Source: Planctomycetota bacterium
Lineage (GTDB): Bacteria; Planctomycetota; UBA1135; GCA-002686595
Length of the DNA: 64,000 nucleotides
Reading direction: 5' to 3'
Assembly (NCBI GenBank): GCA_016779225.1
Contig: JADHNZ010000001.1
Location: forward strand, 1-64,000
Both the position numbers and the translations under genes were made by a program. Position 1 is the first letter of the stretch, and each line of letters starts with the position of its first letter. Below, piece by piece: positions 46,732 to 64,000 of this stretch. The notes beneath the pieces were generated by a model. That model worked only from the letters and a program-made list of their open reading frames with translations, ran no database searches and was not told where the DNA came from.

Positions 46732-47784
46732 TCAGCGGCCCGTCGCCTCGGCCTCGCCGCCGGCCGGCTCGCCGATGAGCTCGAGCAGGGGCCCGGTGTC
46801 GACCTCGTAGCGGTCGACCATGGCGTCCTTCCACTGCCAGTACTCGGGGTCGCTGATCGGCTCCGCCGCCAGGCTCTCCAGGACGAGGCGCCCCACCGCG
46901 GGCCAGGGCCCGGCCTGCGGCAGAGGAGCTCCCTCGACCCTCACGAACACCCACCGCTCCCCCTGCTCCAAGGGGCCGCCCGTCTCCCCCACCTCCGTGT
47001 GGAAGGCCAGGCGGCTGATTGCGGAGGTCGTGCGCAGGACGGCCGGGATCCGTCCGCCCTCGGCGCCCGAGGGGTCCGCGCTGTGGGCGCGCGCCAGGTC
47101 GGCGAAGTCCTCTCCCCGCGCGAGGCCGGCCTGGACCAGGTCCGCGACCTCACGGTCGGCGCAGAGGATCACGGCCACCTCGCGCCGCTCCTGGGCGAGG
47201 GTGAACGCGCGCACGCAGCGCTCCGCCAGGAGCTGCACCACGGCGCTGCGCTCGGCCGCCTCCAGGTAGCGGTCGGGATCCAGGCCCAGCTCCTGGCGCA
47301 GGAAGGTGCGCAGGTCCGTGCTGCCGGCCCGCCGCACCTGCTCCTCGATCCGTGCCCGCACCTCGCGAGCCGCCGCCTCCGCCTCGGCCGCCTCCAGGGT
47401 GAGGTCCAGACGCGTGGCCTCGGCAACCACCAGCCGCTCGAGCACCAGCTCGTCCAGATAGCGCCGCACGACGGCCGACTCGCGGCGGGTCCAGGCCTCG
47501 ACCAGGTCATCCACGCCGATCTCGATCCCGCCCACGCGGGCCACGGCGGGCACGCGGATCAGGGCGGGGACGGCCTCGGACGCCGCGGCCGTCTCCGGAC
47601 TCGCCTCGGCGGGCGCTGCCGTTCGAGCGACCTGCGCCTGGGCGGCGGCAGGCGCGGAGTCCGGCGCAGCGCGAGTCGGCCCCGGTGCCACCTGCGGCGG
47701 GGCCTCCACCGGACGCGGCCGGTTGCCCGCGCCGGCGCACGCCAGCAGCGGCGCCAGCAGGAGGGCCGAGCTCCGACGCCTCAT
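46732..47784 (-). CDS. Exported parvulin-type peptidyl-prolyl isomerase/chaperone
   Basis: The ATG giving MRRRSSALLLAPLLACAGAG yields 350 residues with a signal peptide, possibly a lipoprotein (LLACAG). A Pro/Ala-rich linker (about 25-95) leads to a SurA-like helical domain and then a parvulin-like domain, with VAVILCADREVADLVQAGLA, GEDFADLARAHSADPSGAEGG and a closing ERWVFVRVEG. Such proteins fold outer-membrane or secreted proteins in the periplasm. It overlaps the preceding gene by 4 bp in a translationally coupled chain behind the pseudopilin genes. Confidence 0.82.
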   Translation of the reverse strand: MRRRSSALLLAPLLACAGAGNRPRPVEAPPQVAPGPTRAAPDSAPAAAQAQVARTAAPAEASPETAAASEAVPALIRVPAVARVGGIEIGVDDLVEAWTRRESAVVRRYLDELVLERLVVAEATRLDLTLEAAEAEAAAREVRARIEEQVRRAGSTDLRTFLRQELGLDPDRYLEAAERSAVVQLLAERCVRAFTLAQERREVAVILCADREVADLVQAGLARGEDFADLARAHSADPSGAEGGRIPAVLRTTSAISRLAFHTEVGETGGPLEQGERWVFVRVEGAPLPQAGPWPAVGRLVLESLAAEPISDPEYWQWKDAMVDRYEVDTGPLLELIGEPAGGEAEATGR

Positions 47785-49340
47785 CGGAAGTAGACGCGCC
47801 GCACCGAGCCGATGCCCCGGCAAATGGCGCAAGGCTGGAGCTGGGTGCCGCCGTCCTGGCCGGTGCGTCCCCCGACGGTGACGCTCTCACTGACCCCGCG
47901 GCCGCCGCAGGAGCTGCAGCCCCGCAGGTAGGGTCGGTCGCGCAGCTCGTAGTCGCCACCGAACTCCACGTAGTACGCGTGCAGCCACTGGGCCTTGCCG
48001 TCGGTGCTGAGGGCCTCCCATCCGGCCTGGATCGAGTCGGCCTTCTCCGCGCTGGACTGGGCACGCCGTGCGCGCTGCTGGTTCTCGAGGAAGCGCTTGA
48101 TCTTCTGCTCGAGGGCCGCGCGCTCGGCGTCCTTCTCGCCTCCGCCCCCCTGGGCCTGGGCGCTGGCCTGGGTCGGGATCCCCGCCAGAGCACGGTCCTC
48201 GCCGAGGAGCCAGGTCCCCGTGCCGTAGCTGGCCTGGGCGAAGCGGCCGCGCTCCCGCAGCACCCAGAGGGCGTCGAGCTGCTCGAGCTCGAGGTCCTGG
48301 GCAACGGCCTGGGCGTCTGCCAGGACGCGCTCGCGAATCTCCTTGCCGAGCTCCTCCACCGCATAGGCCGCCGCGGCCTCGAAGCTGCGGTCCCCCACGC
48401 CCGAGCGCGTGAGCCGCCGGGCCCAGTAGCTCCACTTGCGCTCGATGAGCTCGACCAGCGCACGCTCCCGCGCGCTGAGCAGGTTGGCCTTGGCACGCTG
48501 AGCCTCCTCGAGAAGCGGGCTCGCGGGGAAGGTCGTGGCGAAGGCATCCAGGCGCGCGAGGGCGTCGTCGAAGAGGCCGCGGCGCTGGAGCAGCTGGGTG
48601 TCGTGCAGGTAGTCCACCTGCTCCTGTCGCTCGGCCTTGGCCTGGGCGCGCTCGAGCTGCTGGGTCACCTCTTCAGCGCCCTCGACCTCGAGGGCGAGGG
48701 CGGCCTCGTAGTGCCGCACGGCGGAGACGTAGTCGAGGATGCGCTCGCAGTAGGTTGCCAGCGCGAGCTGCGCGGCGGCGTCCTCGGAGGAGGTGCGCGC
48801 GGCCTCCTGGGCGTAGAGCTGGTCGCGCGAGTACACATCCAGGGCAGGCACCTGGGTGCCGCCGGAGATCGAGGCCACGGTGCGCTTGGGGACGATCTGC
48901 ACATTGCCCTCGCGCCGGACCACGAAGGAGTCGCCCTCGCGGCTCTCGATCACGCCGAGGATCTCGGAGCCGTTGGACAGCACGAGGCGCTCCACCGCGA
49001 TCAGCAGCTCCTCCGCCTCGACCGCGATGTAGCCCCACTCTCGGCGCAGAGCCTCCGCCTGCAGGGGCTCCATCAGGGACCACGGCATGCGGACCAGACC
49101 GCCGTGCTCGATGCGCCTCAGCAGGAGGCCGTCATCGTCGTGCTCAACGACCTCGGCCCAGTGCAGGGCGCCGCTCCGCAGCTGGATGGGCATGACCTCG
49201 GTGGGCAGCATGGGCCGGAAGGCGGCCGGCGCGTCCTCCCCGACGGGCGCGCCGCTCGCGTCCGGTCCGAGGGGGTCCTGGGCGTGCAGCGGGGCCACGA
49301 GCGCGGCGAGCAGGCAGAGGGGCTGGAGGAGTCGGGTCAT
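47781..49340 (-). CDS. Secreted protein with C-terminal DnaJ-like zinc motifs
   Basis: The 519-residue product starts with a Sec signal (LLQPLCLLAALVAPLHAQ). The N-terminal part has small beta repeats (LRSGALHWAEVVEHDDDGLL, LSNGSEILGVIESREGDSFV). The middle is helical and TPR-like, rich in Ala/Glu/Gln. The end carries CSSCGGRG and CAICRGIG, two CxxCxGxG motifs as in DnaJ zinc centres, unusual for an exported protein. The family is not recognised. It overlaps its neighbours by 4 bp on each side and so belongs to the pseudopilin operon. Confidence 0.75.
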   Translation of the reverse strand: MTRLLQPLCLLAALVAPLHAQDPLGPDASGAPVGEDAPAAFRPMLPTEVMPIQLRSGALHWAEVVEHDDDGLLLRRIEHGGLVRMPWSLMEPLQAEALRREWGYIAVEAEELLIAVERLVLSNGSEILGVIESREGDSFVVRREGNVQIVPKRTVASISGGTQVPALDVYSRDQLYAQEAARTSSEDAAAQLALATYCERILDYVSAVRHYEAALALEVEGAEEVTQQLERAQAKAERQEQVDYLHDTQLLQRRGLFDDALARLDAFATTFPASPLLEEAQRAKANLLSARERALVELIERKWSYWARRLTRSGVGDRSFEAAAAYAVEELGKEIRERVLADAQAVAQDLELEQLDALWVLRERGRFAQASYGTGTWLLGEDRALAGIPTQASAQAQGGGGEKDAERAALEQKIKRFLENQQRARRAQSSAEKADSIQAGWEALSTDGKAQWLHAYYVEFGGDYELRDRPYLRGCSSCGGRGVSESVTVGGRTGQDGGTQLQPCAICRGIGSVRRVYFR

Positions 49341-49846
49341 GGGGTGTCTCCCAGGGCTTCGGAGCCCAGGAATCGGCGGCGCATGCGCTCGCCGAAGGGG
49401 ACCTCCCTCAGCACGAGGGAGGTGTAGGTTCGGGCGCGCTGGACGCCCCCGGCGGACCAGCGCACGGTGACCTCGAGGCGATACTCGAGGGGGTCTCCGC
49501 TCGAGGTCCGAGGCCCCTCGAGGAGCGGCTCCGCGCGGGCACTGTAGACCACGCCGGGCGCGCCGGGGACGGCGCGGTCGTCCACCTCCACCGGATCGCC
49601 CACGGAGCCGTCCTCGCGCAGGGGGAACAGGCCGACCTCGAGGTCCGCCATGACCGACTCGAGCGCCGCGGCCGAGGCCGCGCGCAGGGCCGCGGTGCGC
49701 GTGAGCGCGGCGCCGAAGGTCAGCATCCCCAGCAGGGCGCCCATGCCGAGGGTCAGCACCCCCACGGCGAGAACCACCTCGAGGAGGGTGAAGCCCCCGC
49801 GGGGCGCCCCCGATCGCCGCGGGCCGACGGGCTGGCGAACCTTCAA
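49337..49846 (-). CDS. GspI/PilV-like minor pseudopilin
   Basis: The 169-residue protein carries a type IV prepilin leader: basic residues, then GGFTLLEVVLAVGVLTLGMG with cleavage expected after the second Gly and Glu at +5. The remainder is a small beta-rich domain. It would join the tip of a type II secretion-like pseudopilus. The TTG start, which overlaps the previous stop codon, gives a short leader; the longer open frame upstream lacks a prepilin leader. Position after a GspJ-like gene supports the GspI assignment. Confidence 0.85.
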   Translation of the reverse strand: MKVRQPVGPRRSGAPRGGFTLLEVVLAVGVLTLGMGALLGMLTFGAALTRTAALRAASAAALESVMADLEVGLFPLREDGSVGDPVEVDDRAVPGAPGVVYSARAEPLLEGPRTSSGDPLEYRLEVTVRWSAGGVQRARTYTSLVLREVPFGERMRRRFLGSEALGDTP

Positions 49847-50985
49847 CCGCCCAGCCTCCAGTCGTCCTCGTGCAGCAGGATCGGGACCTCGGTGGTGACC
49901 GAGGCGCCGTAGTGGATCAGCGCGCCGGCCGGCAGCTCGTGGGCCGCGGTCTCGCGCACGCCGCGGCGCACGCGCACGCGGCCGGGGTCGATGCCGAGCA
50001 CCTCCATCCACTCGCCGTCGATGAGGATGAAGCCCCCGGGCTGGGGCAGGCGACGCTCGTCGTCCACCTGCAGCTGAGTCTGCACCGCCGTCGCCGCGTC
50101 GAGCAGGCGCGTGCGTCGCTTGATGTCCTTCTCGCGCTCGAGCTCGAGGACGAGCCGCACGCGCCGCGGGAGCAGCGGGCGCCCGCCATAGGCAGGCATC
50201 CCCTTGCCCAGCTCGTTGCGGGCGTGCACCTCGGGATCCACACGCTCAGCGGCGCGCGCGTCCCAGGCGGTGCAGGCGTCCGCGAGGCGCGGCCCCACCT
50301 CCCAGCCGTTGGCAAGGACCGTGGTCTGGGTGGCGAGCTCGATCCCGAGCCAGAGGACGCCGCGGGCCACCTCGTCCAGGGCCCCGGGCTCCGGAGCGCC
50401 CCCCGCGAGCAGCGCGGGATCCAGCAGGCTGTCACGCGAGCTGTCGCCGAAGAGGCGCTCGCCGCGCAGCAGCACGCCCCGGTAGCGGTCCGGCGCCGCG
50501 GAGTCGTCCGGGACGAGGACCCAGGCCACCTCCACGAGGCCGGTGGCCTCGGGCAAGGGGCCGGTCGGCGGCCGGCCGTCCGGGGCCTGCGCCTCCGGGA
50601 CCTCTCCCTCCGCTGCGCGCCCGAGGAGCGCCTCCTGGGCTGCGCGGGACTCGAGGTGCTGGACGGCGGCGGCACCCACCTGGCGGACCAGGCGCAGCCG
50701 CGGCCAGACTCGATCGGCAAGGCCGTCGGCGTCGTGATCGAAGGGCTGCCAGTCCACCACCAGGTCGCCGCTCGCTCCCCCGTGCAGGTTGCGCAGGTCG
50801 TCGGCCAGCAGACCCAGGAGCGTATTCGTCCGCTCGATGCCATCCCGGCGCACCTCGCCCTTCGACCACATGTCGAGGGTGAGGTCCAGGAGGCGCACGA
50901 GCCCCGTCATGATGAACGCCGCCAGCAAGGTGGCGGTCAGCAGCTCGACGAGGGTCAGGCCTCGGCGCTCGGAGTGCGTGCTCAT
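49843..50985 (-). CDS. GspJ/PilW-like minor pseudopilin
   Basis: The 380-residue product begins HSERRGLTLVELLTATLLAA, a class III prepilin leader with Glu+5, followed by an 18-residue hydrophobic helix. The large periplasmic part includes LVDLL-type helices and beta segments (FILIDGEWMEVLGIDPGRVR). It is longer than usual GspJ (about 200-230). Four-base overlaps with the GspK-like and GspI-like genes fit a tip complex of I, J and K pseudopilins. Confidence 0.85.
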   Translation of the reverse strand: MSTHSERRGLTLVELLTATLLAAFIMTGLVRLLDLTLDMWSKGEVRRDGIERTNTLLGLLADDLRNLHGGASGDLVVDWQPFDHDADGLADRVWPRLRLVRQVGAAAVQHLESRAAQEALLGRAAEGEVPEAQAPDGRPPTGPLPEATGLVEVAWVLVPDDSAAPDRYRGVLLRGERLFGDSSRDSLLDPALLAGGAPEPGALDEVARGVLWLGIELATQTTVLANGWEVGPRLADACTAWDARAAERVDPEVHARNELGKGMPAYGGRPLLPRRVRLVLELEREKDIKRRTRLLDAATAVQTQLQVDDERRLPQPGGFILIDGEWMEVLGIDPGRVRVRRGVRETAAHELPAGALIHYGASVTTEVPILLHEDDWRLGG

Positions 50986-53900
50986 CGGTCCACGCTCCCC
51001 AGGACCCGGGACGGGGCCTCGTAGGACACGCCCAGCCAGTTGAACCGCGGCGTGGCGCGCCAGCCGTGGGCGCTGCCCATGATCGGATCGAAGCTCCCGG
51101 CGGGATACTCCACGAAGAAGCGCCACTCGAGCCGGTCAGAGATGACCTCGAGAGGCAGCTCACGGCCTCCGTCGTCGTCGAACCACTCCCACAGGCCGGC
51201 CGTCTCCCGCGGCTCCGCGTCCCAGGGCGCCCCGGCGTCCGAGCGAACCAGCACGCCGATGCGCGCGCCGCCCGCCGGAGGCGGCTCGCTCTCGAAGGCG
51301 AATGAGCCCCAGAAGCCTCCGGGTCGCGTGCGCTCGAGCCCGAGATAGGCGAGCTCCGGGGCGTCGGCGCGCGGCGTCCAGCGGTCCCAGTAGCGGAAGG
51401 GGAAGAGGATCACGGGAGCGCCGGCGGCGTGGCTGGCCGGGGCCGTGCCGAAGCGTCCGCGGAAGAGGCCGTTGCCGTTGGCGTCCTGCTGCCCGGGCTC
51501 CGCGGAGGTGCGCGGCATGGACAGGGTGCCTCCGTTGAGGCGCGTGTAGTGGATCAGCTCGTCCTCGATCAGGACGGTGCCGCTCTGCGGGAAGCCGTCG
51601 GCGTCAGCGAGGGGCAGCTCTGCGTCACCGGCGCTGATGCCTCCCGCCAGGGTGGTCACCGGCATCCAGTCCATGAACTGGACGGGCTCCGTCAGGCCGT
51701 GGGGCTGCACATCGGTCCCGAGCAGGCCGCGACCGAGGGGGCCGACCGTGATCAGGCCCTGGCCCGGATCAAGGGCCTCGTAGCACACGATCTCCTCGCC
51801 GATGCGCAGGAGTCCGGCGTCCTGGGGTAGGCGGCTCAGGACATCAGCAGGCTCTCCCAGGTTGCCCTGGGGCAGGCGCAGCTGCCGCTGCAGCACGGGG
51901 AAGATGGCCCCGTCGGGCGCGACCTCTCCGGCGAGGATGAGGGAGCCGCCCTGGGCCGCGTAGGCCGGCTGACTGCCCCCGAACCCGATGCCGAAGAGGC
52001 GCTCGGGGAAGAGGACCTCATCCACCACGGCGTCCACGGTGCTGCCCCGGTTCTGGAACTCGCCGCCGATCACGACGCCGGCCACCGTGCGCGGGCGCTC
52101 ACCGCTCGGGTGCTTGGCGATGCGCGCGCGCAGGCGCGTGTCCGCCGGCAGGGGCCCCTGCACGCCGGGGTCCACCGCCGCGATGGGCTCGACGAGCGGC
52201 GCGTTGAAGGCGACCAGCGTCTGGAAGCGCTCCTGCGGCTCGGTCGGCACGAACTGGGCCTCGGCCGTCGCCACGACGCCGCCGCCGCCCGCGGGGTCCA
52301 CCTCCCAGCCGTAGAGGGGCCGCTCGGCCGCCGCCCGGTGCGCGCGATGCACGGTCATGGGCCAGCCCGGGTGAGTCGGGTCCGCGGCCGAGACGAAGAC
52401 GCGATCCTGGGCGCCGGGACGCCCGCGGTTGGTGTCGCCGGGCGTGAGGTGCCACACGGGGAGGACCTGGGTCCCGGTGGGGTGGTCGTGGCTCGAGGTC
52501 CCCAGCACTCCTCGGAAGCGGAACCATGAGCCCACCGAGCGCGTCAGGGGGAAGTCCCCGTCCTCGGCCGCGCCCAGCCGCGGCTCCCAGATGACGCCCG
52601 CGCGGCCGCTGGCGACGGGGCTCGGCGCGGGCGCGGCGGCGGCGGATCCGGTGGGCGCCGGCGGCACGGTGTCCGCCATGCCCGAGCCCAGGGCCGGAGC
52701 GCCGAGGGTGATGCTGCCGGTGCCGCCTCCCGGGGGCGGACTCCCGGAGCTCGGCGGCAGGCCGCCGGCTCCTCCGCCGCCGCCTCCGCCCCCTCCGCCG
52801 CCGGGCACATCCGGGCGCACGGGAGCGCTGGTGAAGTCGGGGCGCACGCAGGCGGTGTAGAGGACATTCAGCGCGCCAGGGTCACAGCGCACCAGCTGCC
52901 CGAAGCCCACCTGGATCTCGTCGTAGCGGATCCACTCCGTGAACTCGGCCTGGTCGACGCGCGTCAGCTGGGCGTACTCGCTGACCACGCCCTGGCCGGC
53001 CCCTGCCCCGGCCCCCTGGCCAGCCCCGGAGCTCCCCTGCCCGGCACCCTGCTGTCCCCCGGCTGGCTCGGGCGGGAGGAACGAGATGTCCGACGCGCCA
53101 GGAGCAGGCACGGAGATCGGGATCACGAACACCCCGTAGCTCGGCACCTCGTCCACCGGCAGCTCGAGCTGCTCGTCCACGATGAAGTCGCGCCAGTCCA
53201 GAACGAAGACCCGCGTACCCCCGATCAGGTCGCTCGCCTCGCCGGGGATCTGGAGCTCGCTCAGGACCTGGTCCCCCCGCGCCGCGATCGAGAGGGTGTC
53301 CCCCGACCAGCCGGAGTAGCGCACCAGCTCGACCCCGCCCAGCGGCTTGTTGGTCGTGCTCGAGCTGCCCGGGGGCACAGCGTCGCCCTGACCCGAGCCG
53401 TTGCCCGCGTTCCAGCGCAGCTGGAGGAGCGCGGCGTAGCCGCCCGTGGGGCTGAACGCGCGCATCACATCGCCGCCGATGGGCGCGTTGGGGTCGTCTG
53501 CCGAGCGCAGCCGCAGCTGCGGGTTCGGCCGGTCCGCCTCGATGCCCTTGCCCCAGTCCGTCATGAACGGGCCCGCGAAGATCGGGTCCATGTCCGCCTC
53601 CGACTGGGGCGCCACGACCCGCGCCACGCGCCAGGGCCCCAGGTCCGAGGGGAGGACCGCGCCGCCCGCCGGGATGTTCGAGCTGGCGGGGATCGAGTAG
53701 CCGTAGGCCTGGACCGTCGTCCCCGAGGGATACGAGGTGGTCAGCGTCCCGCGTGCCAGCGCGGCCGGGATGGTCACATCCGCAGGGTCGGTGGCCTCAC
53801 GGTCGTGCATCTCGCGGGCGAAGCGCCCGCCGAAGCCCGCGAGCGGGCCGGCCTCGTTGAAGGTGCAGTTCAGCCCTCCGCTGGTGAGGACATACTCGAC

Positions 53901-56303
53901 GAGCTCGGTGCCGATGCGCGCCACGCCCTGGACGGGGAAGCCCTCGGTGCGCTCGAGCGGGATGAAGCCGTCCGCGTCGGAGATGGGCCCGGTGGTGATC
54001 GACTGTCCCTGGCGCCGCACCCCCACGGCGAGGCCGTTGACGAGCAGGCCCAGCTGGTCCGGGCGCGTGCCGCTCACATCGAGGGCCAGGTGATGCCAGA
54101 CGCCCACGGGCAGGCCGGGTCCCTCGCCCGCGGCGATCGCGTAGCGCAGCTCGGACGCCTCGCGCTCGGGCGTGTCGGGGTGGTCGCCGAAGCCGTCGAG
54201 GACGCGCACCACCAGGTCCGGCCCCTCGAGCAGGATCTGCACCCGGTCGCTCTCGACGGCAGTCCCCGCCACATCCAGCAGGGTCGAGTCGCCCACCTGA
54301 CGCAGCTGGAACCAGGCCTGGAACGAGAGCGCGCGCAGCAGGTTCAGCTCCGCCTCCGAGGTCCAGCCCACGAGCTGGCTGGCGGGGTCGCGCACGATGC
54401 TGCCGGTCTCGGCGATCCAGCGCCCCTCGAGGCTCGAGGTCTCCTGGTCGAAGTGCAGGGCGTGGCCGTTCCAGAGGGGTGCGTCCGGCACACGCGCCGG
54501 CCAGAGCTGCGCGAAGCCATCGTCCTCGCGGGAGGCAAACACGCGCTGGGGCTGGACCTCCTCACCGGCGCGGTCGAACACCGGCTCGCTCAGGCCGGGC
54601 ACGAACGCGCTGCCGCCGACGGTCCCCATGTGAGCGGCGAAGCGGGAGGGCGGCACGACCACGCCATCGAAGCGCACGACTGGCTGGGGCCCGGTGGCCC
54701 ACCAGGCGGACTCGCGGTCGAGGCGCACGGCCTCCTCCAGGTCCACCTGCCGGCTGAGGAGCTCGAACAGCGGACCCGGCGGCGAGATCAGCTCCCAGCG
54801 ATCACGATCGGCGCGGGCGCGCTCGACGCCGCTGCGCGCGGCCACCGCCGAGCGCAGGTGCATCCCGTACACCTCCCGCGAGGTGAACGCGAAGGGCATG
54901 GTCGAGAAGGCCAGCCGGCTGTCGTTGGCGTTGAGGCCGTTGAGGTACAGCGCGGTCGCGTCGAGCGGGTCCAGGAACCCGGTGTCCCCCTCGAGGAGCT
55001 CGGGACGACTGGGCGCATCCTCGGGCAGGGTGTCCAGCCCGGCGGCCGGGAGCACGACCCGCTCGAGGAAGTCCTGCCAGCCGTCGATGGGTCGGGACTG
55101 CTGCACGACCGTGGCCAGGTCCCGCGCCTCCGAGGCCGTGATGCGCTCGTTGCGCCCGGCCACCTGCAGGCCCTCGAAGAGCACCTCGAGCACGGCCGCA
55201 GGGGCCGTGTTCAGGTTCACCGGCCGACGCGCCAGGGGGCGCACCGTCGAGCGCCACGGATCGAAGCCGTGCTCGAGGGCCTGGTCCAGGACCAGGGTGC
55301 CGCCGCGGGCACGCCGCATCACGATGCGGTACTCGTCCACCTGCCCATCGGAGATCCAAACGGTGGTGCCCTCGGCGAACCAGCGGTCCTCCTCGACACG
55401 AATGGTGTAGGTCTCGAAGGGCGTGACACCGCTGAGCAGGCGCGTCGGCCGCTGCCAGGTGCGCCCGGCGGCAATGTCCCCGTGGACGGTGCCCAGCTCG
55501 CGCATGCGCGCACGCAGCGCGGGGTCGATGCTGCCGGCCACCGCGTAGGCGTCGAGCTCCGCGAGCTGCTCGAACGCATCGAGCCCGCGCAGCCCGGTGC
55601 TCGCCGTCGCAATGCGCCACAGGGGCAGCGCGTAGGCGCGCTGGTCGATGGCATGGTCCCCCACGCCGTGCTGGACGGGCGGGAGCGGGCCGTCAGTGGA
55701 CCACTTGCCGTCGTCGTCCTCCACGGCGCCGAGGCCACGGGTCAGGCCGGTCAGCCCGCCGTCCGGGCCGCTCGACTTGCCGGACCACTGGATCCACTCC
55801 CCGCGCAGGATCAGGACCCCAGAGTCCGGGAAGGCCGCGAGGTTGTTGACCGGAATGACATCCTGGTCGGCGGGCTCGACCGGACGCGAGAGACGGCCGC
55901 GCAGCCCGGTCAGGTTGCCCAGCACGAACGGGCTCGCGCTGTCGAGGTCGATGCGCCCCGACTCGTCCCACACCTCCAGGTCCCACATGGCCCCGCGGGG
56001 ATCGTGAGGGTCCAGGAACTCCTTGGGCAGGCTGCGCGGAACGAGCAGCTCGTCAGGACCGTCGGACCAGGGCGTCTCATCGAAGGCCGGGTGCGACCCC
56101 GAGAGATGCGCGCGCGCGTGGCGCGCCGCGGAGCTGAGCCCCAGGCGCGCCTCGGCGCGGTCGGCCGCCTGGGCGCCCGCCGAGGAGGCGTTGCGCGCCG
56201 TCGCGAGGAACGGCGCGGTGAGGACCAGCAGCGCGAGCAGCACCACAAGGACCGCGATGAGCACGAAGCCGGCCTCGCCGCGGGGAGCGCGGGGGGTCCT
56301 CAT
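50982..56303 (-). CDS. Giant GspK-like pseudopilin with LamG/ConA-like domain
   Basis: At 1773 residues this is about five times the size of ordinary GspK. The leader is GEAGFVLIAVLVVLLALLVL without Glu+5, as in GspK. The family hallmark RRPVNLNTAPAAVLEVLFEG lies near residue 360. A LamG/concanavalin-like domain (about 655-775) shows VGVWHHLALDVSG and LGLLVNGLAVG. Gly/Gln-rich (about 1075-1105) and poly-Gly (about 1165-1185) linkers separate further beta-rich parts. It should sit at the pseudopilus tip and may bind glycans or cargo. The ATG giving MRTPRAPRGE overlaps the preceding stop. Confidence 0.85.
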   Translation of the reverse strand: MRTPRAPRGEAGFVLIAVLVVLLALLVLTAPFLATARNASSAGAQAADRAEARLGLSSAARHARAHLSGSHPAFDETPWSDGPDELLVPRSLPKEFLDPHDPRGAMWDLEVWDESGRIDLDSASPFVLGNLTGLRGRLSRPVEPADQDVIPVNNLAAFPDSGVLILRGEWIQWSGKSSGPDGGLTGLTRGLGAVEDDDGKWSTDGPLPPVQHGVGDHAIDQRAYALPLWRIATASTGLRGLDAFEQLAELDAYAVAGSIDPALRARMRELGTVHGDIAAGRTWQRPTRLLSGVTPFETYTIRVEEDRWFAEGTTVWISDGQVDEYRIVMRRARGGTLVLDQALEHGFDPWRSTVRPLARRPVNLNTAPAAVLEVLFEGLQVAGRNERITASEARDLATVVQQSRPIDGWQDFLERVVLPAAGLDTLPEDAPSRPELLEGDTGFLDPLDATALYLNGLNANDSRLAFSTMPFAFTSREVYGMHLRSAVAARSGVERARADRDRWELISPPGPLFELLSRQVDLEEAVRLDRESAWWATGPQPVVRFDGVVVPPSRFAAHMGTVGGSAFVPGLSEPVFDRAGEEVQPQRVFASREDDGFAQLWPARVPDAPLWNGHALHFDQETSSLEGRWIAETGSIVRDPASQLVGWTSEAELNLLRALSFQAWFQLRQVGDSTLLDVAGTAVESDRVQILLEGPDLVVRVLDGFGDHPDTPEREASELRYAIAAGEGPGLPVGVWHHLALDVSGTRPDQLGLLVNGLAVGVRRQGQSITTGPISDADGFIPLERTEGFPVQGVARIGTELVEYVLTSGGLNCTFNEAGPLAGFGGRFAREMHDREATDPADVTIPAALARGTLTTSYPSGTTVQAYGYSIPASSNIPAGGAVLPSDLGPWRVARVVAPQSEADMDPIFAGPFMTDWGKGIEADRPNPQLRLRSADDPNAPIGGDVMRAFSPTGGYAALLQLRWNAGNGSGQGDAVPPGSSSTTNKPLGGVELVRYSGWSGDTLSIAARGDQVLSELQIPGEASDLIGGTRVFVLDWRDFIVDEQLELPVDEVPSYGVFVIPISVPAPGASDISFLPPEPAGGQQGAGQGSSGAGQGAGAGAGQGVVSEYAQLTRVDQAEFTEWIRYDEIQVGFGQLVRCDPGALNVLYTACVRPDFTSAPVRPDVPGGGGGGGGGGGAGGLPPSSGSPPPGGGTGSITLGAPALGSGMADTVPPAPTGSAAAAPAPSPVASGRAGVIWEPRLGAAEDGDFPLTRSVGSWFRFRGVLGTSSHDHPTGTQVLPVWHLTPGDTNRGRPGAQDRVFVSAADPTHPGWPMTVHRAHRAAAERPLYGWEVDPAGGGGVVATAEAQFVPTEPQERFQTLVAFNAPLVEPIAAVDPGVQGPLPADTRLRARIAKHPSGERPRTVAGVVIGGEFQNRGSTVDAVVDEVLFPERLFGIGFGGSQPAYAAQGGSLILAGEVAPDGAIFPVLQRQLRLPQGNLGEPADVLSRLPQDAGLLRIGEEIVCYEALDPGQGLITVGPLGRGLLGTDVQPHGLTEPVQFMDWMPVTTLAGGISAGDAELPLADADGFPQSGTVLIEDELIHYTRLNGGTLSMPRTSAEPGQQDANGNGLFRGRFGTAPASHAAGAPVILFPFRYWDRWTPRADAPELAYLGLERTRPGGFWGSFAFESEPPPAGGARIGVLVRSDAGAPWDAEPRETAGLWEWFDDDGGRELPLEVISDRLEWRFFVEYPAGSFDPIMGSAHGWRATPRFNWLGVSYEAPSRVLGSVDR

Positions 56304-57349
56304 CCCTCCACCGTCCCGTACAGGCCCACGCGCACCAGGTCCTCTGTGCCGTCCTCGTACTCGAGGACCAGCTCGAGGGGCGCGGGGTGGCGCCGCGGAT
56401 CGAGGGCCCCCGTCGGAGTGAAGTGGATCTCGGTCGCGCTCTCCTTGGACAGCGTCACCCCCACCGGCAGGAGCGTCTCGTCCCCCGCGCGCACGACGGC
56501 GAGCACCAGGTCGTCCACCTGCGCCCGCAGGCCGCCCGTGCCCCCACCCACGAGGAGCGGTCCCTCGGGCTCCCACACGCGGCCTTCAGCGGCCACGGCT
56601 CCGACCTGAACATCGTCCACGAGGGCGCGCAGGACGCTGCGGTCGTACTCGAGGCGCACGCGACACCAGCGGCCCGTGGGCAGGACGCCGGGCACGGACT
56701 CGAGGCGGATGCGCCCGCCCTTCGCCGCGCGTCCCGTCGCGCCCTCGACCTCCTGCACGAACCACCCCGAGAGCGAGCCGTCGGAGCGCAGCTCCAAGCC
56801 GGCAACCGCGCCGAGGTCCGCCAGCCGGGTGCCCGTGGCCTGGGTCACGCGCACGGCGAGCTCGAGGGCAAAGCCCTCACGCGGATCGCAGGCCGGATCC
56901 TCGTCGAGGGCCACGGCCAGCCGCGCCGAGGGGGGCGCGGCGGCGAAGTCGAGGGCACGGCCGAGGTGCCCCGCGTCCGTGCGCGGGACCTCACCACCCA
57001 CGATCTCGGCCGGCGGGCCGAAGCCCTCCACCAGGCCCTCGTCCTCGAAGCGCCAGGTGCCGACGACCCGCAGGCCCTCCGCCTGGAGCAGGCCCGTCGC
57101 CCGATCGATGCGCACGCGCGCGGCCGCGCGGCGCGCCACGGCCTCGTTGCGCGCAAGGCGCAGGGTGCTCGTGACGGTCGAGAGGGCCGTCCTCCTGCCC
57201 GGGTCCAGGTTCGCCAGGGAGCCCGCGCCCACGCCCAGCACCAGCGCGAGCAGGCCCATCACGATGAGCAGCTCGAGCAGGGTGAGACCGGCGCGCGGCC
57301 CGTGCGGTCCACGGGTCCCGCCGCTCGTGGGGCGGGGGGCGGGAGTCAC
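56300..57349 (-). CDS. GspH-like pseudopilin with LamG-like insertion
   Basis: The 349-residue protein has a prepilin leader (RAGLTLLELLIVMGLLALVL, Glu+5) and the GspH-type start of the mature domain (STVTSTLRLARNEAVARRAA). Residues about 95-290 form a ConA/LamG-like domain: HLGRALDFAAAPPSARLAVA, FALELAVRVTQATGTRLADL, PTGRWCRVRLEYDRSVLRAL. The end (TEIHFTPTGALDPRRHPAPL) returns to the GspH pattern. GspH is normally about 170 residues, so the fold appears inserted into the pilin domain. It overlaps both neighbours by 4 bp. Confidence 0.85.
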   Translation of the reverse strand: MTPAPRPTSGGTRGPHGPRAGLTLLELLIVMGLLALVLGVGAGSLANLDPGRRTALSTVTSTLRLARNEAVARRAAARVRIDRATGLLQAEGLRVVGTWRFEDEGLVEGFGPPAEIVGGEVPRTDAGHLGRALDFAAAPPSARLAVALDEDPACDPREGFALELAVRVTQATGTRLADLGAVAGLELRSDGSLSGWFVQEVEGATGRAAKGGRIRLESVPGVLPTGRWCRVRLEYDRSVLRALVDDVQVGAVAAEGRVWEPEGPLLVGGGTGGLRAQVDDLVLAVVRAGDETLLPVGVTLSKESATEIHFTPTGALDPRRHPAPLELVLEYEDGTEDLVRVGLYGTVEG

Positions 57350-63218: not shown

Positions 63219-64000
63219 TCAGCGACCTCCGCCCTGCTTCTGGTTGAGGAGCTCCTGGACGGCATCCGCGAGGAGCACCTGTCCCTGGCCGAGCAGCGCG
63301 AGCCGAATGGCCTCGAGCCGCGCGAGCTCGTCCTCCTCGCGGCCCAGCTCGAGGGCGTCGAGCTCGGCCTCGGTCGGGGCGATCAGGCTGCGGGCCTGCT
63401 CCGCGATCTCGGTGCCGCCGTAGCGCTGGGCCAGGGCATCCGCCGACGCGATCGCGTCGCGGTACCCGTCCGTCAGGCGGAAGAAGCGAGCGCGCGCGAT
63501 GGTCTCCTCCAGAGCACCCAGCTCGACGCGGGCCTCCTGGGCCAGGGCGGCAAGGCCAGCCTCCGCCTCGGCGGTGACCTCCTGGTCGTAGGGAGCGGAG
63601 TCGAGCAGCGACTGCCACGCCTGCAGCGCCTCGCCCACGCGCCCCTCGCGGGTGGCCTTGCGCGCCGCGCTGGCGAGCTGGAGCGCCTCGGACAGCTCCT
63701 GCTGGAAGGTCACCTGCACCACGAGGGCTCCGCTGACGGGGAGGTCGAGCTCAAGGTCCCAGCCCCCTCCGGCGAGGGGTCGGCCAGCCACGGCCGCGCC
63801 GCCTTCACAGCGCAGGGCCACCAGCTCCCGCCCGCTGCCGATCAGGAGGGTGTGGACGGCGCTGCGCTCGAACGTCGCCGGGTGCGACGAGGAGCCGCCC
63901 TCACCAAGGGTGCGCACGCCGCTCTCGGCCCCGGTAGAGGCCGTCCGCACGGACCAGCGCCCGGCGCCGCTCGCCTTGAGGCGCGCGCCGCGCGGATCGG
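63219..64000 (-). CDS. Helical/beta protein of secretion cluster, 5' end outside window
   Basis: The frame is open to the window edge. The residues before the first internal GTG (LKASGAGRWSVRTASTGAES) read like ordinary protein, so the gene is taken as 5'-truncated. The visible 260 residues have a beta-rich start (HTLLIGSGRELVALRCEG, GGWDLELDLPVSGALVVQVT) and a helical second half (GRVGEALQAWQSLLDSAPYD), somewhat TPR-like. I do not recognise it. It ends 3 bp before the PilMN gene and belongs to the same unit. Confidence 0.65.
   Translation of the reverse strand, partial: DPRGARLKASGAGRWSVRTASTGAESGVRTLGEGGSSSHPATFERSAVHTLLIGSGRELVALRCEGGAAVAGRPLAGGGWDLELDLPVSGALVVQVTFQQELSEALQLASAARKATREGRVGEALQAWQSLLDSAPYDQEVTAEAEAGLAALAQEARVELGALEETIARARFFRLTDGYRDAIASADALAQRYGGTEIAEQARSLIAPTEAELDALELGREEDELARLEAIRLALLGQGQVLLADAVQELLNQKQGGGR

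Follow-up and report, generated by a model that had tools for sequence, protein, structure and literature searches.

The question raised by this locus is what purpose a GspK-type minor pilin of such unusual length could serve, and whether it is a single protein at all. The window, by which we mean the whole stretch of 64,000 nucleotides analysed (positions 1 to 64,000 of contig JADHNZ010000001.1, assembly GCA_016779225.1, a Planctomycetota bacterium), carries the gene (P0001, here giant K) on the minus strand, which a preliminary description had left unstated. It runs for 1773 codons without interruption from an ATG at 56303 to a stop ending at 50982, with an ATGA overlap at either end: the start codon is shared with the stop of the upstream pilin gene, and the stop with the ATG (50985) of the downstream one.

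The absence of a glutamate at mature position 5 is a hallmark of GspK. Giant K has a class III leader and a hydrophobic alpha-1 (a long helix at residues 8-70 in the predicted model), its leader cleavage site reads ...EAG^FVLIAVLVVLLALLVL (N-terminus, EAG^FVLIAVLVVLLALLVLTAPFL), and none of the 44 aligned homologues that cover residue 5 of the mature protein has Glu there; the sequences of the G, H, I and J pilins of the same operon, unlike K, do have Glu5. The preliminary description had recognised GspK by the leader and a VNLNTAP motif (residues 362-368, window 55200-55220) and had put the protein at about five times normal size. Both motifs, together with a structural match to XcpX/GspK (6utu_C; VIA-align Z 13.5, 216 residues, 3.4 A, model residues 49-511), bear out the identity, and the size estimate agrees with the 307 positions of the NCBIfam GspK model NF037980. 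Pfam T2SSK scores 17.7 bits against a cut-off of 24.2, which several long-frame orthologues exceed, and NF037980 scores 19.3 bits; as the latter falls short of the equivalog cut-off of 130, giant K is, by its sequence, a GspK homologue and not an ordinary GspK.

A frame of this length might be an artefact of frameshift, misassembly or fusion, and the preliminary description had itself raised a frameshift joining separate genes. The family was matched by protein search in 41 of 41 relatives, with a frame of ~1500-2130 codons wherever contigs are long enough, fragmented assemblies giving shorter pieces. Measured from the leader, 44 homologues are 1620-1791 aa long (the shortest truncated by a contig edge), and a single frame is also present in the complete genomes of the isolates Pla86 (CP036296) and Poly30 (CP036434). 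A contig search returned 56 loci, all from Planctomycetota where the record states a phylum. Profiles of the N-terminal and C-terminal halves, searched separately in 199 sampled Planctomycetota genomes, matched 131 and 127 of them, respectively, while about one third of the 199, some near complete, had no match to the half profiles. Both halves lay in the same frame in at least 87 genomes from 35 families (1356-2399 codons, median 1826). Split frames at the locus, as assembly errors would give, occur in the contigs of two relatives (L063 and L089) and not in the genome under study. Because the single frame is conserved we reject the artefact, to which we concede next to no probability. Giant K is spread across the phylum Planctomycetota.

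Its architecture was examined in AlphaFold models built from 45-row alignments (residues 1-880, mean pLDDT 81.5; residues 876-1773, mean pLDDT 76.6), in which giant K is a GspK core enlarged by insertions and by a ~1230-residue extension, mostly of beta domains (Table 1). It thus joins a pilin module to a non-T4P functional domain, the combination by which modular pilins are defined. Two extra small barrels interrupt the predicted core, at residues 130-224 and 282-359; the second matches phage tail tube and tailspike structures (9n71_A, Z 11.8; 4ru4, Z 11.3; VIA-align), as well as V-ATPase rows (Z 7.9), and on account of these last is regarded as a common barrel. The C-terminal sandwich reaches at best Z 5-7.0, to GOLD, CBM and jelly-roll rows, and has no clear relative. 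Searching PDB sequences with the profiles of the two halves yielded 0 matches, and Foldseek alone gave none against PDB at E <= 0.001 for the giant K models; fold assignments rest on VIA-align Z scores and sequence profiles.

Table 1. Features of the giant K gene and its operon in window coordinates, with the basis of each assignment.
Feature	Position	Strand	Basis
FHA-domain protein, first of conserved set	63219..64000, on to contig C9 65213	minus	FHA-family E 8.6e-16
PilM/PilN-like (Amuc_1101-like) protein P0007	61572..63215	minus	NF045709 E 6.8e-32; PilM_2 E 4.4e-12
GspM/PilO-like protein P0006	60799..61569	minus	NF040576 E 2.7e-4; PF10741 E 0.01
TPR protein P0004	58031..60796	minus	conserved position
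GspG-like major pilin P0003	57346..57996	minus	TIGR01710 E 1.7e-10, below equivalog cut-off
GspH-like minor pilin P0002, weak LamG-like C-terminus	56300..57349	minus	Laminin_G_3
Giant GspK-like minor pilin gene, 1773 aa (P0001)	50982..56303	minus	ORF; homologues
Prepilin leader (G12^F13, no Glu5) and long alpha-1 helix, residues 1-70	56094..56303	minus	sequence; model
GspK core with inserted helical domain, residues 49-511	54771..56159	minus	VIA-align to XcpX
Phage-tail-hub-like module A, in GspK core, residues 137-205	55689..55895	minus	repeat HMM; 8rk3_b
Second small beta barrel in GspK core, residues 283-358	55230..55457	minus	tail-tube/tailspike-like
LamG/ConA-like beta sandwich, residues 612-765	54009..54470	minus	VIA-align; Pfam in homologues
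Phage-tail-hub-like module B, residues 770-870	53694..53996	minus	repeat HMM
Beta-rich region, residues 876-1160	52824..53678	minus	predicted model, mostly high pLDDT
Disordered Gly/Pro/Ala linker, residues 1159-1240	52584..52829	minus	pLDDT < 50; translation
Phage-tail-hub-like module C, residues 1451-1547	51663..51953	minus	8rk3_b; PHROG 1101/7578
Phage-tail-hub-like module D, residues 1546-1636	51396..51668	minus	8vjh_A; phrog_1101; cyanophage tblastn
C-terminal beta sandwich, residues 1638-1773 (136)	50985..51392	minus	GOLD/CBM/jelly-roll rows
GspJ-like minor pilin, 380 aa, tail-hub-like module near C-terminus	49843..50985	minus	phrog_1101
GspI-like minor pilin, true start inside listed ORF	49337..50011	minus	TIGR02598 E 9.7e-8; XpsI-like E 5.4e-7
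P0010, last conserved gene, TPR-like	47781..49340	minus	conserved position; sequence

A LamG/ConA-like fold had been proposed for part of the protein, and structure prediction does place such a sandwich there, with agrin G2 (3pve) matched at Z 9.6 and many LNS/LamG rows near 8. Pfam Laminin_G_3 is sub-threshold in giant K itself (E 0.012, 16.2 bits against a cut-off of 27.6) and matches in 8 of 14 homologues, the best score seen being that of Pla86 (E 5.6e-6, 27.0 bits), and LamG sequence scores as a whole fall mostly short of Pfam cut-offs; for this reason we term the domain 'LamG-like'. The earlier picture of a GspK of great size with a LamG-like fold and glycine linkers (of which there is one, at about residues 1159-1240) therefore stands, but is incomplete: the LamG-like part accounts for only ~150 of 1773 residues, and the repeated modules described next, a second GspK-like protein of ordinary size and the phylum-wide spread had all been missed.

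A small beta module akin to the tail-hub/baseplate domains of phages occurs at least four times in giant K. In structure, the region of module A (130-224) matches the JBD30 baseplate protein 8rk3_b at Z 8.5 (VIA-align), as does module C (Z 9.6, 2.2 A, 80 residues, 21% identity), and module D matches the Chi tail tip 8vjh_A (Z 9.1, 1.5 A, 74 residues, 19% identity). As a fold, the small beta barrel is widespread, and a structural Z alone is no proof of phage ancestry. At the level of sequence, HMMs made from four segments of giant K (A, 140-205; B, 770-870; C, 1470-1545; D, 1548-1633) recognise one another, with D finding B in the same protein at 2e-7 and A finding D at 1e-10, while the ties of C are chiefly to A (8e-5 at best within the family), those to the others being weak; matches between copies go down to 1e-6 to 1e-12, against a best of 0.39-6.9 in shuffled sequences. 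With the tail protein family phrog_1101, 14 of the 14 homologues that were scanned give a match (the strongest at 3.8e-10), and most of them also match further PHROG baseplate/virion families. PHROGs comprise viral proteins only, so that these matches do not show which way the modules were transferred or that other cellular proteins lack them. In the homologue from Pla86, Pfam Rcc01698_C passes its cut-off (29.3 against 27 bits), tblastn with module D returns cyanophage structural/baseplate proteins at ~28-45% identity and weak E values (6e-4 to 8e-3), and a structure search of viral models gave 49 matches at E <= 0.001, the named ones mostly phage proteins and one superposing at 1.3 A with 32% identity over 88 columns. 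The module motif is roughly GFPxxGxxxIGxELIxY...RGxxGTxxxxHxxGxxV. No phage genes were recognised in the giant K operon; giant K shows tail-hub-type modules in use on a bacterial pilin.

That operon comprises ten genes in the order FHA-PilM/N-PilO/GspM-TPR-GspG-GspH(LamG-like)-giant GspK-GspJ(module)-GspI-P0010, which recurs in relatives when judged on loci that are long enough, the few shuffled labels belonging to the same genes, read in overlapping frames of antisense type. Pilins of G, H, I and J type are thus co-encoded with giant K, as are PilM/N/O-like platform proteins, and two of the pilins share its added domains. The GspH orthologue of Poly30 matches Laminin_G_3 above the cut-off (E 1.3e-6), and the GspJ-like pilin matches phrog_1101 at residues 290-357 (E 8.5e-4), with the module HMM matching 30 of its 45 orthologues. 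The domain content of K, J and H accordingly yields three putative tip pilins with LamG-like or tail-hub-like domains. The ~220 C-terminal residues of the TPR protein P0004 have no Pfam match, and P0010 ends in a CxxCxGxG-type motif resembling a DnaJ zinc finger. Beyond the window end, by ~6.4 kb, lies a gene on the minus strand for a protein with a bacterial nitric oxide synthase oxygenase domain (contig C9 70440-71693, L033:6440-7693; PF02898 E 9e-126).

A GspK-like protein of ordinary size is present in 39 of 41 relatives, mostly with 450-600 codons, a leader-like N-terminus and NVNTAP. Searching with a relative's protein located one in the genome under study (C51:71143-72483; L128:9143-10546, minus), called GspK-like from its NxNTAP motif and leader-like N-terminus; this copy has no Pfam T2SSK match, and in the genome as a whole T2SSK matched nothing but a Tex protein, at its HhH. 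The window gene as the only GspK of its genome is thereby refuted. The C51 gene is not located with other pilin genes: its unrelated neighbours encode hydantoinase B and a putative secreted protein, and two frames away is a secretin gene. Given its presence in nearly all relatives, the ordinary-size protein suggests, on sequence grounds, that giant K is an additional, specialised subunit beside it, and this coexistence likewise suggests that giant K may belong to a specialised filament of its own and not to general secretion.

The main rival to a receptor displayed at a pilus tip is a periplasmic, cargo-sorting pseudopilus, in which giant K would be the tip of a true type II secretion system, its extra domains would select or position exoproteins (e.g., carbohydrate-active enzymes) before export, and its LamG-like domain would bind a cargo protein and not a glycan. 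The GspK, GspM and XpsH/XpsI-like signals of the operon are in keeping with this, and the genome does encode a GspD-GspE-GspF-type cluster, on contig C72, away from the giant K operon. A head of 1773 residues would, however, be very large for a periplasmic piston, and nearly all relatives have the ordinary GspK-like protein too. A T4aP motor cluster, PilB-PilT-PilC, is also encoded on C93 (L115, 40001-47319), with two PilB-like ATPases, and makes a retractable pilus possible. We consider the periplasmic arrangement rather unlikely on balance. One of the C93 ATPases has an MshE-type c-di-GMP motif above cut-off. No PilY1 domain was detected in 41 genomes, by a search that had no working positive control.

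In type 4 filaments, K caps the H-I-J-K tip complex. We hypothesize, and hold to be fairly likely, that giant K is a modular tip pilin of a type 4 filament, presenting a large head that acts as adhesin or receptor. Its GspK homology and operon context would place it at the tip: the leader would be removed by prepilin peptidase, and giant K would then cap the H-I-J-K complex, occupying the top because, lacking Glu5 and being so bulky, it would leave nothing able to sit above. The tail-hub-like modules may serve as a rigid scaffold, with the ligand sites in the LamG-like domains of both K and H. The lectin-like domain and phage-tail modules on GspK are probably the large binding head of a pilus. 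Folds of the LamG-like and ConA-like kinds often have proteins, and not glycans, as their ligands. For the domains of K and H the likeliest ligand would be a glycan or a surface, and recognition of a substrate or surface by giant K, as the preliminary description had it, is plausible by analogy with Streptococcus sanguinis PilC. Alternatively, giant K might be a tip-located receptor for DNA uptake or the like, resembling ComZ, with modules that bind DNA and not glycans. DNA capture is indeed the role of bulky minor pilins like ComZ of Thermus (PMC6561018, PMC8179133), and phylum-wide retention would suit a basic function, but no competence-specific gene was seen in the operon, and a glycan or a protein is the likelier ligand given LamG-like domains in both K and H; we regard such a role as improbable.

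The route by which planctomycetes bind and take up macromolecules is unexplained, and a tip pilin that is giant, conserved and equipped with lectin-like domains is a concrete candidate for their capture head. In Planctopirus and Gemmata, dextran was observed on the pili-like fibres that crateriform structures bear (PMC5394234), to which giant K might hypothetically be linked. It is tempting to speculate, though we would put it forward as doubtful, that many Planctomycetota have a dedicated type 4 filament whose giant tip complex (K, J and H), with LamG-like and phage-tail-hub-derived modules, is the polymer-capturing end of these dextran-binding fibres.

The literature searched yielded no paper on a planctomycete GspK of giant size, and comparison is with systems known elsewhere. 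With GspK/XcpX, giant K shares the leader, the absent Glu5, the NLNTAP motif, the helical domain inserted in the pilin sheet and the minor-pilin operon; it differs in being 5x as long, in the two small beta barrels of its core and in its extra C-terminal residues. The tail-hub/baseplate modules of phages (8rk3_b, 8vjh, Rcc01698_C of GTA/phage, PHROG 1101/708/2885) are of the same size, ~75-90 residues, and resemble those of giant K at 18-21% identity in aligned structures and by sequence-profile matches, but in giant K, unlike in phage, they are repeated in a cellular pilin. The Akkermansia Amuc_1098-1102 type pilus locus has in common a PilM-like Amuc_1101-family protein (its match far below the equivalog cut-off), whereas the operon described here has a giant K and no secretin. 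Similar in design are S. sanguinis PilB and PilC, in which modules grafted on tip pilins are adhesins (PMC8179133, PMC9934059) and of which PilC, a pilin with a ConA-like lectin module, binds glycans (PMC9934059). These too join a pilin module to grafted non-pilin modules with presumed tip display, while giant K has a GspK-type carrier, is several-fold larger and adds tail-hub-like repeats; of the multi-domain cases, the extreme that PMC8179133 names has 860 residues. Modular lectin pilins are thus already known, and giant K is unusual among them in its size, its composition and its spread across a phylum.
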